From Microbacteriaceae bacterium (GTDB lineage: Bacteria; Actinomycetota; Actinomycetes; Actinomycetales; Microbacteriaceae): 64,000 bases of DNA. Under the pieces are notes generated by a model that saw nothing but the letters and a program-made list of their open reading frames with translations, made no database searches and had not been told where the DNA came from. Where the stretch lies: positions 124,001 through 188,000 of the forward strand of contig JAODMT010000004.1 in the NCBI GenBank assembly GCA_025464975.1. Direction: 5' to 3'. The position numbers and the translations under genes are program-made. Of the stretch, positions 35,466 to 51,068 are shown piece by piece. Numbering within the stretch: the first letter of the stretch is position 1; every line of letters begins with the position of its first letter.

Positions 35466-35700
35466 GGGTCGAGTAGGGCGCGCAGCGCCTGTATCGAGAC
35501 CGGTTACGTCGTTCCTGGGTCTCGATACGCTCGCTGGCGCTCGCTACTCGACCCGCTGATGCATCTGGCGCTTGCTACTCGACCTGCTGACGCATCCGCC
35601 GCTCGCTGCTCGACCTGCTGACGCATCCGGCGCTTGCTACTCGACCCGCTGACGCATCGGGTCTCGGTGCGCTGGTTGGCGCTCGCTGCTCGACCTGCTG
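35466..35700. repeat. REP pair and 31-bp tandem array
   Basis: A REP-like element in reverse orientation (35466-35501, GGGTCGAGTAG...TATCGAGACC) is followed by a forward one from about 35515 (GGTCTCGATACGCTCGCT). Its right half is then repeated as a 31-bp tandem unit: 35536-35566, 35567-35597, 35598-35628 and 35629-35659, of the type GGCGCTTGCTACTCGACCTG plus CTGACGCATCC. A further partial copy lies at 35678-35700. There are no unique spacers, so it is not CRISPR. It lies between the aminotransferase gene and the HNH gene, both of which it leaves intact. Confidence 0.85.
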
Positions 35701-35727: not shown

Positions 35728-37140
35728 TCAGGGGCCGGGGCGGATGCGGATGGCGGGCTCGGTGCTGTATTTGCGTGCGGTCGGGGATGCCCAGTGCATG
35801 TTTCCTTGACGGTCTTGGGTGACGGTCCAACCGGTGTGGTGTTTCAGGTCGTGGTGTTTCGGGCAGGCGTGGGCGAGGTTGTTCCACGCCGTGTGGCCGA
35901 GGTGTTGCCAGTCTTTGGTGTGGTCGATGTCGCATCGTCGGGCGGCAGTGTGGCAGCCGGGGTGGCGGCAGGTTTCGTCGCGGAGGCGGAGCCAGGTGCG
36001 GAGGTCCGGCGGGACGCCGTAGCGGTTGCGTCCGACGGAGAGCACGACGCCGGTCTCGGGGTGGGTGAGGATGCGGATGAAGCCGGGAGCTCGGGCCGCG
36101 AGGTAGTACGCGGTGCCGAGGTCAATCGGCCCGTAACCTTCGAGGGTGGCGGGTTCGTCGGGGTGGCCGAGGAGGGTGAGGGCCGGGACGGTAATGAGTA
36201 CCCGGGCGCGGATGCCGCGGCCGAGTGCAGCGCGACCGGAAGCCATGTCTGTGGCCCCCGAGTCCGTGCCCGGCTCTTCGGCGACGCCATTGATGAGAAG
36301 GTCGGTGAAGGCGTCCGCCTTCAGCTGGGTCATGGTGCGGGGCTCGGTGGGTCCCGAGCTTGAGACGGCCATGTCGGTGAGCCGGTTGAACGCGGCCTGC
36401 GCCGCGACCGCCGGCAGGTAGGCGGAGAGCCACGCCATGCCGTCGCGTGCCGGGGTGAGGGTGACCTCGCGTTTGTCTGTGCACTCGGCGTGGCGAACGT
36501 CAATGGAGTCGGGGTGGAGGCGCTCGCGAAGGGTGCGAGCTTTGCGGTCGAACTTCGACACCGTCAGTGCCAGCGCCGAGGGAAGCGCCGCTTGCTCGAA
36601 TGCGCGGCGGCTACTTTCCGGGAGCGAGATGGCGTGCTCGATCATCACTTGCGCGTGACGGTAGGAGAGGGTCCCGGTTTCGAGGGCGGTGAGGGTCTCG
36701 GGCAGGTCGGTGAGCAGGGTCGCGCTTTCGGCGATCAGGGTTTCGGCGCTGCGTTCCGGAACCCGCAGCGCGCAGGCCAGCTCGGAAACGAGCACGCGTC
36801 GCGCGACGGCCGATTGGCTCCACCGACGGACAGTTGACGGGTCGGTCATCGAGAACGCGGTCTCTTCGCTCCATCGTCGGGTTTGATCGATCAGTCTCGC
36901 CCGCTTGGCGGCGCCGATCGCCAACTGCCGGTCGCTGTCGGCGACCGCGTCGATCAGATTCCCAAGCTGGTCGAGGGCGAATGCCGCGGACCGCCCCGCG
37001 GTCGGGGCCGCGAGAGCCGCAGGAGCAGGAGCAAGGGCCGCGGGAGCAGCCGCGGGAGCAGGAGCAAGGGCCGGGGGATCCAGCGCGGGAGCAACGGCCG
37101 CGAGAGCCGCGGAAACGGTGGGGGGCGACAGTGCTTCCAT
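35728..37140 (-). CDS. DUF222 / HNH endonuclease-domain protein (13E12 type)
   Basis: A 470-residue protein of the actinobacterial 13E12/DUF222 group. An Ala/Pro-rich N-terminus (about residues 10-50, PAPAA-type repeats) precedes the mostly helical DUF222 region. The C-terminal HNH motif is CRHPGCHTAARRCDIDHTKD, then WNNLAHACPKHHDLKHH, with paired zinc Cys residues and the catalytic His. Such genes occur in many copies in Microbacteriaceae and Mycobacterium and are thought to belong to mobile or selfish elements; the true activity is not established. It is flanked on both sides by repeat arrays. The start (ATG 37140) has no clear ribosome site. Confidence 0.87.
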   Translation of the reverse strand: MEALSPPTVSAALAAVAPALDPPALAPAPAAAPAALAPAPAALAAPTAGRSAAFALDQLGNLIDAVADSDRQLAIGAAKRARLIDQTRRWSEETAFSMTDPSTVRRWSQSAVARRVLVSELACALRVPERSAETLIAESATLLTDLPETLTALETGTLSYRHAQVMIEHAISLPESSRRAFEQAALPSALALTVSKFDRKARTLRERLHPDSIDVRHAECTDKREVTLTPARDGMAWLSAYLPAVAAQAAFNRLTDMAVSSSGPTEPRTMTQLKADAFTDLLINGVAEEPGTDSGATDMASGRAALGRGIRARVLITVPALTLLGHPDEPATLEGYGPIDLGTAYYLAARAPGFIRILTHPETGVVLSVGRNRYGVPPDLRTWLRLRDETCRHPGCHTAARRCDIDHTKDWQHLGHTAWNNLAHACPKHHDLKHHTGWTVTQDRQGNMHWASPTARKYSTEPAIRIRPGP

Positions 37141-37303
37141 AGCAATACTCAACACCCAACCACCGACATTCCAGGCCCGGGCAACCGCGGGGTTGGACAG
37201 CGGAATCCCGGGGCCGAGCGGCACGCCCCGAGACCCACAACGAAGCCCGCTGTGAACCCCGCGGTGAAGCCCCGAATACGAGTATGCCTACTCCGCGGCA
37301 TCC

Positions 37304-37449
37304 GGTCTCGATACGCTCGCAGGCTCGCTACTCGACCAGCGGGAACACTCGACCCGGGGAAGCGCTCGACCCGCGGGAACGCTCGACCTGCGGGAACGCT
37401 CGACCCGCGGGAACGCTCGACCCGCGGAAGCACTCGGCCCGCGGAGTAC
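37304..37449 (+). repeat. REP-like element plus seven 17-bp tandem units
   Basis: GGTCTCGATACGCTCGCAGG to CTACTCGACCAGCGG (37304-37340) is a REP-like unit. Its CTCGACCAGCGGGAACA end is then repeated as CTCGACCCGCGGGAACG and variants: seven consecutive 17-bp units starting at 37331, 37348, 37365, 37382, 37399, 37416 and 37433. The last unit ends in TAC, the first half of the yceD -10 box. Confidence 0.85.
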
Positions 37450-38995: not shown

Positions 38996-40042
38996 GTGCC
39001 GGAACTTCCCGAGGTAGAGGTCGTCCGCGCCGGCCTCGAACCGGCCGTGACCGGAGCGATCATCGAGACGGTCTCGGTGTTCGAGCCTCGGTCGCTGAGA
39101 CGCCACGTCGGCCCGAGCGAGGATTTCGTCGAACGGCTCTCGGGACGCCGCATCCTCGGTGCCGTTCGTCGCGGAAAGTTCCTCTGGCTGCCGCTGTCCC
39201 CGTCCGCAGTTCCTGGCGCGGTTCCTGCTGCTCCTGCCGCGGTTCCCGTTGCCGTTCCCAAAACGCAGGACATTCACCACTTCACGGGCGATTTCGTCGA
39301 AAATCGAGCCGACGGTGGTGAATCTCCTGCGTTTTCAGAGGCGCGCGGGGATGCGCACGGGGAGGCGCTCGTCGTACACCTCGGCATGAGCGGGCAGGTG
39401 CTGCTCCGGGACGCGGGGCAACCGGATGACTCGCTCCTTCGCATCCGGCTGCAACTGAATTCCCCGGCCGGGGGACCGTTGCGCGTCGACTTCGTTGACC
39501 AGCGGATCTTCGGATCGATGGCGGTCGACCACCTCGTTCCGACCCCGGACGGACAGCCGGCCGGACTCGGTCACCCGGCCGCGCTCATCCCGAGCCAGGT
39601 CGCTCATATTTCCCGGGACCCGCTCGACCCGGCCTTCTCGGACACCCGCTTCTTCGCGGCACTTGGCCGCCGTCGCACCGGCATCAAGCGCGCGCTGCTC
39701 GACCAAAACCTGATCAGCGGCATCGGCAACATCTATGCCGACGAGGCGCTCTGGGCGGCCCGTGTGCACTACGACCAGCCGACCGAGACGCTCAGCCGCG
39801 GCCGAATGCGCTCGCTGCTCGCCGAGGTCCGGCTCGTCCTCGGCAAGGCCCTCGCCGAGGGCGGAACGAGTTTCGACGCGCAATACGTGAACGTGAACGG
39901 CGCCTCCGGCTACTTCTCACACTCCCTCAACGCGTACGGCCGGCAGGGTAAGAGCTGCCCGAGGTGCGGGCGTCCGATCGTGCGCGAGTCGTTCATGAAC
40001 CGCGGATCGCACTTCTGCGCGTACTGCCAGCGGGTGCGCTGA
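38996..40042 (+). CDS. mutM: formamidopyrimidine-DNA glycosylase with an in-frame palindromic insertion
   Basis: MutM/Fpg removes 8-oxoguanine and formamidopyrimidines from DNA. After processing of the GTG-coded Met, the catalytic Pro is exposed in PELPEVEV. GRRRTGIKRALLDQNLISGIGNIYADE is the helix-two-turn-helix region, and the C-terminal zinc finger reads CPRCGRP ... CAYC. At 348 residues it is about 55 longer than usual. The excess lies between RRGKFLWLPL and ALVVHLGMSGQ (about residues 67-122). It consists of an Ala/Pro/Val-rich stretch followed by 25 residues (89-113) encoded by the 76-bp palindromic element. The active-site parts are intact, so the enzyme may still work. Confidence 0.93.
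   Translation: MPELPEVEVVRAGLEPAVTGAIIETVSVFEPRSLRRHVGPSEDFVERLSGRRILGAVRRGKFLWLPLSPSAVPGAVPAAPAAVPVAVPKTQDIHHFTGDFVENRADGGESPAFSEARGDAHGEALVVHLGMSGQVLLRDAGQPDDSLLRIRLQLNSPAGGPLRVDFVDQRIFGSMAVDHLVPTPDGQPAGLGHPAALIPSQVAHISRDPLDPAFSDTRFFAALGRRRTGIKRALLDQNLISGIGNIYADEALWAARVHYDQPTETLSRGRMRSLLAEVRLVLGKALAEGGTSFDAQYVNVNGASGYFSHSLNAYGRQGKSCPRCGRPIVRESFMNRGSHFCAYCQRVR
39260..39335 (+). repeat. palindromic element copy A, inside mutM
   Basis: The left arm AAAACGCAGGACATTCACCA(C) and the right arm (G)TGGTGAATCTCCTGCGTTTT are inverted copies of 21 bases with one mismatch, around a 34-base centre. The same arms occur in copies B (50845-50921) and C (50992-51068). It is read through as MutM codons 89-113 without a stop. 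Confidence 0.9.
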
Positions 40043-50844: not shown

Positions 50845-50921
50845 AAAACGCAGGAGATTCACCACGGAAGTGGCCCTTTCACGCGGTGACGTGTCGTTTG
50901 GTGGTGATTCTCCTGCGTTTT
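50845..50921. repeat. palindromic element copy B
   Basis: The left arm AAAACGCAGGAGATTCACCA(C) and the right arm (G)TGGTGATTCTCCTGCGTTTT enclose 35 bases, GGAAGTGGCCCTTTCACGCG then GTGACGTGTCGTTTG. Arms differ from perfect complementarity at one or two central bases. Confidence 0.92.
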
Positions 50922-50991: not shown

Positions 50992-51068
50992 AAAACGCAG
51001 GAGATTCACCACGGGAGTCACCCATTCACGCGGTTACCTGCCGTTTGGTGGTGATTCTCCTGCGTTTT
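50992..51068. repeat. palindromic element copy C
   Basis: The same arms as copy B enclose GGGAGTCACCCATTCACGCG then GTTACCTGCCGTTTG. The centres of B and C are clearly related to each other (shared TTCACGCGGT and CGTTTG) and have the same length, 77 bp overall. Confidence 0.92.

Follow-up and report, generated by a model that had tools for sequence, protein, structure and literature searches.

An in-frame palindrome in a DNA repair gene

How a palindromic DNA element comes to lie in frame within a repair gene, and what writes or keeps its other copies around the chromosome, are questions raised by the mutM gene in a 64,000-nt stretch of Microbacteriaceae DNA (contig JAODMT010000004.1, positions 124,001 to 188,000), referred to here as the window. 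The palindrome belongs to a dispersed repeat family of the source genome (G000; 3.22 Mb, 24 contigs), and matching elements bracket a nuclease gene elsewhere in that genome and at many loci of its homologues, with arms that vary along with the nuclease. The features of the mutM locus are as follows.

38996..40042, plus strand: mutM (Fpg), host of the insertion; 348 aa, GTG start, with Pfam Fapy_DNA_glyco, H2TH and zf-FPG_IleRS above cut-off
39197..39259, plus strand: Pro/Ala/Val-rich linker upstream of copy A, MutM residues 68-88; outside the repeat and of species-dependent length
39260..39335, no strand assigned: element copy A, 76 nt, in-frame palindrome corresponding to MutM residues 89-113
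39260..39270, plus strand: left outer arm of copy A, AAAACGCAGGA, identical in mutM of seven genus members
39325..39335, minus strand: right outer arm of copy A, inverted, TCCTGCGTTTT, found in mutM of seven genus members, with one base different in G001

The initial annotation had described a palindrome occupying residues 89-113 without stop or frameshift, and codon mapping bears this out: the first base of copy A begins codon 89, its last base is base 1 of codon 114, and its translation, KTQDIHHFTGDFVENRADGGESPAF, contains no stops and no frameshifts. The z-scores for the predicted fold of copy A are -5.6 (DNA) and -5.8 (RNA), and in neither case was any of 200 shuffles equally stable. Synonymous positions of the arm codons are conserved, and the arms are identical at the DNA level with rare codons. 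The catalytic N-terminus, H2TH and zinc finger had been considered intact, in agreement with the invariance of P2/E3, K61, M131, R170, F172 and the four zinc-finger Cys residues among 35 MutM sequences. The linker from RRGKFLWLP to ALVV measures 57 aa here, vs 6-16 aa in the five members of the mutM tree that lack an insert and 23 aa in G020, the outgroup of that tree; the insertion annotated as about 55 residues is accordingly one of roughly 41-51. The Ala/Pro/Val-rich stretch that had been counted with the insertion adjoins the element, but residues 68-88 are not part of the repeat.

Anatomy of the repeat family

When two mismatches at most are allowed, the pattern AAAACGCAGGANATTC of the arms has 49 forward and 49 reverse occurrences in G000, as opposed to 0 and 1 for a reversed-pattern control. 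About five of these 98 matches are single or chance-like; all others lie in 76-77-nt pairs, from which at least 47 copies were extracted (77 nt in 40, 76 nt in seven). With regard to a full-length parent transposon with the same ends, what was seen is this pairing at 76-77 nt. Each element consists of 11-bp inverted outer arms (AAAACGCAGGA...TCCTGCGTTTT) located 54-55 nt apart, with a spacer that is free in sequence and fixed in length. Two further copies lie within the window.

50845..50921, no strand assigned: element copy B, 77 nt, with a minus-strand gene on each side
50992..51068, no strand assigned: element copy C, 77 nt

Among 39 copies of 77 nt, left-arm positions 4-11 (ACGCAGGA) are invariant and the partner arm is nearly so, position 73 deviating in three; on both sides, 37-39 of the 39 retain each position of an inner block, CACCAC (positions 16-21). 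Because copies were gathered by arm similarity, arm conservation is partly built into these figures. Complementarity is not maintained at stem positions 12 and 14 of the same copies, and pairing of the 35-nt spacer within G000 is no higher than expected; together these results weaken the proposal that a hairpin of the entire element is the selected feature.

The outer arm is the same across relatives, while the inner block, read by eye, is species-specific (CACCAC in G000, CGCCAC in G006 and G004, and a spacer type GAGCAAAA...TTTTGCTC in G008), differing between species on both sides jointly. All 68 copies extracted from relatives are 76-78 nt long. For a sister arm type, GAAATNNAGGA, for which lengths of 66-92 nt were allowed, 53 of the 75 forward copies listed are 77-80 nt and 22 are 89-90 nt, with none at other lengths, the 90-nt copies of G064 resembling close duplicates of one another. 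Two length classes some 12 bp apart may reflect a role for spacing along the DNA helix.

A nuclease gene bracketed by matching elements

At a fixed chromosomal locus, elements bracket a gene whose product combines an AbiEi-like winged-helix N-terminal part with a Vsr/I-Bth0305I-like PD-(D/E)XK nuclease domain.

G000:C3:584439-585506 (L122:2740-3807): nuclease gene of the source genome

The protein possesses the catalytic D...ExD core and the fold of DUF559/Vsr-like PD-(D/E)XK nucleases. In G000 it matches Pfam DUF559 only below the cut-off, its PADLOC matches to AbiEi are weak, and a comparison with NCBIfam found no family for it. The gene reads into the downstream element, which encodes its last codons (RKRRTFTTKP), and does likewise in G004, G006 and G008.

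Matching elements are present on both flanks at 18 of 30 homologue loci, in contrast to none of 51 mutM loci and none of 60 random stretches. The pattern persists when seven close homologues are set aside (12 of 23 distant loci, with other arms) and when the four loci that generated the hypothesis (G000, G004, G006 and G008) are removed (14 of 26); AAAACGCAGGA arms account for six of the 18 bracketed loci. Inverted repeats of any kind occur at 23 of the 30 homologue loci, 13 of the 51 mutM loci and 17 of the 60 random stretches, and only two-sided matching arms separate the groups.

Arms vary among homologues, often with AAA-NNN-AGGA in common, although those of, for example, G018 and G028 are without it. 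The arms are AAAACGAAGGA in G064 and AAAACTGAGGA in G076, with 46 and 9 genome-wide pairs, respectively, by the pattern AAAACNNAGGA; GAAATTCAGGA is found in G009 and G033 and GAAATGCAGGA in G003. Local clusters of GAAATTCAGGA lie near a nuclease homologue at G072:C1:1074681-1104698 (at least seven in 30 kb) and G009:C25:118-42359 (five in 42 kb).

Arm distance follows nuclease distance, with a Mantel r of 0.625 over 21 loci and 0.447 when a single member of the close clade is retained, values reached in 0 of 20000 permutations. The arms for this test were read by eye at 21 of the 30 loci, four of which have a one-sided element (L250, L251, L252 and L258); left out were L246, L263, L266 and L267, with no matching arms by the gene, L257 and L270, with arms seen at loci absent from alignment A2, and L262, L265 and L269, with neither.

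Placement, dispersal and age of the copies

In gene neighbourhoods obtained with a home-made gene finder, the genes on either side are tandem for 26 of the 47 copies, convergent for 16 and divergent for four, and the remaining copy, in mutM, lies within a gene; one tandem-class copy overlaps the 3' end of the nuclease gene. Median distances to a stop and a start codon are 66.5 and 123 nt, respectively. The element disperses as a unit: in 45 related, dispersed pairs of 77 nt, arm identity is 0.93-0.97, falling to 0.56-0.68 over the next 5 nt and to about 0.3 at distances above 20 nt, and the sequence common to copies B and C consists of the element plus CGG, with no further flank. Unlike B and C, two copies at L142 (G000:C17:344760-344961) lie within a 124-bp tandem duplication extending into flanking DNA.

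Arm matches per strand within the genus range from 0 (G005, G011 and G012) to 49. At one convergent site, an element of the AAAACGCAGGA family is present only in G000 and G010 and absent from the eight congeners in which both flanks were found; G011 carries an element of another arm type there, and the state of the site could not be assessed in G006 or G009. In empty-site comparisons, the left flank at L111 was found in no congener except for a 168-nt match in G009, and at L112 the congener intergenic DNA (25-238 nt vs 240) was too divergent for an exact empty junction. Spacer identity at orthologous sites slightly exceeds that of random pairs both in mutM (0.39 vs 0.32) and in 16 other, hand-picked pairs (0.44 vs 0.33), values that 0 of 300 null sets reach. 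From this identity and the site differences between congeners, many copies look old and inherited, and others recent. Outer arms of unrelated copies are 0.95-0.96 identical, nearly as alike as those at orthologous sites.

The MutM turn as a reused insertion site

The initial annotation knew of no comparable case in Microbacteriaceae, and comparison with relatives does not support a single case. Among 13 genus members, the source genome included, the AAAACGCAGGA-arm family occupies the MutM turn in frame in seven; of the rest, one carries the sister-armed family, one an unrelated palindrome and two carry remnants, and two have nothing there. The sister-armed family also occurs at this turn in one member of another genus, which brings to three the further genomes with another palindrome at this spot (G002, G034 and G009). 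The mutM linker of G009 (L161) contains an in-frame 63-nt palindrome with 20-bp arms (GGGTCGAGCTTGTCGAGACC) unrelated to both arm families. Short inverted motifs can be seen by eye in the DNA of the linker of G032 (L029), about 43 aa long, possibly another repeat at the same turn.

The MutM turn is a reused insertion site for palindrome families. Looping out of the insert, a question raised in the initial annotation, is what AlphaFold modelling predicts, the insert forming a disordered loop and the Fpg core being kept, and MutM presumably tolerates it. That an element in this repair gene could alter the mutation rate is a further possibility named in the initial annotation.

Alternative explanations

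The sequence at 39260-39335 is supported as an in-frame insertion of a dispersed palindrome, given the genome-wide copies and the short linkers in insert-free relatives. That it might instead be an ancestral MutM loop, palindromic in appearance only, is extremely unlikely. Loop length at this position does differ from one family member to another, and two members of other genera have long MutM linkers, about 43 aa in G032 and about 29 aa, Ala/Gly-rich, in G023. Nevertheless, the DNA-identical arms with rare codons, the insert-free relatives and, above all, the copies across the genome stand against such a loop, and the last rule it out for copy A. The inverted ends, fixed size and non-autonomous copies would also suit ordinary miniature inverted-repeat transposable elements (MITEs) left by a lost DDE transposon, with the nuclease merely among them. 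No direct duplication was found at 115 copies; its lack does not exclude all MITEs, but elements with other arms likewise bracket distant homologues of the nuclease, and arm sequence follows the nuclease phylogeny, making this origin improbable. A RAYT-driven REPIN whose transposase was missed is very unlikely. The architecture is REPIN-like, with conserved inverted ends and a variable spacer of fixed length (PMC3116915, in the portion of the text available), and most assemblies of the genus are incomplete, but Y1_Tnp (PF01797) matched none of its 13 genomes, several of them incomplete and two 99-100% complete, in a search that did register the control in five of 14 named genomes, E. coli among them; this candidate was rejected on that result. 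Nor did any of 115 copies carry a GTAG tag within 6 nt outside the element end.

A less remote, though still unlikely, alternative is that the elements are host-maintained sites, such as 3'-end hairpins, bidirectional terminators or sites for a chromosome-organising protein, with the AbiEi/Vsr-like protein as their regulator and spread as a secondary matter. Nearly constant outer arms at orthologous sites with saturating spacers, strict spacing with discrete length classes, conserved synonymous positions in the arm codons and the location of 42 of the 46 non-mutM copies (26 tandem and 16 convergent, leaving 4 divergent) 3' of a stop codon would all fit such sites. On the other hand, arm matches range from 0 to 49 per strand within one genus, the one site examined is variable among congeners, a copy that ends transcription would be harmful within mutM, and complementarity is not preserved at stem positions 12 and 14; the same placement is shown by repetitive extragenic palindromes (REPs) elsewhere (PMC3733652, in the part available).

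Several observations weigh against a repeat system partnered by the nuclease. The N-terminal AbiEi fold match in a PDB comparison is weak by the structure-comparison tool's own yardstick. Two-sided matching arms are absent from 12 of the 30 homologue loci, and in seven of these the tested zone contains no inverted repeat; matching elements are also missing from a supported clade of the nuclease that comprises three loci. Conversely, elements occur without a close nuclease homologue in G001, G003, G007 and G010, assemblies that are 81%, 90% and 64% complete for G001, G003 and G010, but 98% for G007. The nuclease gene looks vertically inherited and not itself mobile. Target-site duplication was sought at 115 copies (k 2-9, offsets 0-4), and no excess of direct duplication was found. 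Outer arms are 0.97-0.99 identical at orthologous sites whose spacers are almost saturated (0.39-0.44), and such near-identical arms suit maintenance by the host no less than selfish spread, although unrelated copies have arms nearly as alike and were gathered by arm similarity.

Relation to known systems

The REPIN/RAYT REPtron of Pseudomonas and E. coli, as presented in the available parts of its descriptions (PMC3116915, PMC8266576, PMC3733652), resembles the present family in its conserved inverted ends at fixed distance and variable spacer, its mostly extragenic placement 3' of genes and an enzyme gene that lies near the repeats and is itself not mobile. It differs in that no HUH/Y1 transposase was found in the genus and the elements here have no GTAG tag, no excess pairing in the spacer within G000, many arm types with AAA-NNN-AGGA, and an AbiEi/Vsr-like nuclease as candidate partner. 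The elements are built like REPINs but fail two defining tests, RAYT and the GTAG tag (PMC3116915, PMC8266576, within the text available).

The comparison with Rickettsia palindromic elements (RPEs), made in the initial annotation, is apt for behaviour and fails for family. As in RPEs and intragenic REPs, an in-frame palindrome occupies a DNA repair gene, here mutM in 7 of 13 genus members, and different REPs have been reported from about the same recB site in two Xanthomonas (PMC3733652; PMC10969869; both from partial text). In contrast, the arms, the host gene mutM and the Microbacteriaceae setting are different, the candidate partner is of another kind, and a CGTC tag ends the repeat in 2 of 115 copies and GTAG in none. 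CGTC repeats, including RPE-4 and RPE-6, have been reported without a dedicated transposase.

Unlike the EDxHD/Vsr-like homing endonuclease I-Bth0305I, the nuclease is joined to an AbiEi-like N-terminal part, and its gene is bracketed by short palindromes rather than intron-borne. It differs from the AbiEi type IV antitoxin, which it resembles in an N-terminal fold match only, in that a nuclease domain follows. AbiEi binds inverted-repeat sites, including perfect inverted 11-mers 27 bp apart (PMC3985639, in the portion available), which could be a useful parallel for arm reading by the winged-helix part. MTES_1575-type nucleases have been described within giant conflict-system proteins (PMC3710099, likewise in part). 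Among the literature matches listed, no title or abstract opening describes an association of palindromes with an AbiEi-Vsr nuclease, preprints and most subscription papers lying outside the scope of the search.

Other repeats in the window

35507-35689 and 37314-37449: 31-bp and 17-bp tandem repeats flanking a 498-aa ORF on the minus strand (35728-37224)
35728-37224, minus strand: the 498-aa ORF, which resembles a DUF222/HNH protein
2458-2540: short direct repeats related to ACCAAAACTGAACA, AT-rich within a GC-rich genome

Proposed working and implications

The reading moderately favoured is a REPIN-like, non-autonomous repeat system with a nuclease partner, probably not a transposase. The association of gene and elements, the co-variation of arms and nuclease and the dispersal as a unit are observed, whereas binding, cutting and mobilisation by the nuclease are inferred. 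By analogy with AbiEi at its inverted sites, the winged-helix part would read the inverted arms and the nuclease would cut at them; repair or single-strand processing might then copy the 76-77-bp unit elsewhere, mostly 3' of stop codons. The 76-nt form, with its open KTQ...ESPAF frame, would in mutM have landed in a beta-turn tolerant of extra residues and been kept for these two reasons.

Chances are about even that this is a separate class of bacterial repeat system, in which a fusion nuclease of AbiEi-Vsr type, a relative of the homing endonucleases, would write, move or keep fixed-geometry, REP-like palindromes. Such a class would comprise many arm specificities across the Microbacteriaceae, do without any transposase and occasionally rewrite proteins in frame, as in MutM. 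The spread of REP-type repeats, and the lack of a transposase in some of their families, is an open question, as has been stated for CGTC REPs (PMC3733652, in the available part). For the present family, in which no RAYT was detected, the nuclease is a clear candidate for the partner, and its phylogeny varies together with the arms; several arm types being available, the pairing lends itself to direct testing. The DUF559/MTES_1575 nucleases with AbiEi_4, an uncharacterised family, in turn gain a likely substrate, and one turn of a repair enzyme is seen to have been used repeatedly by different palindromes.
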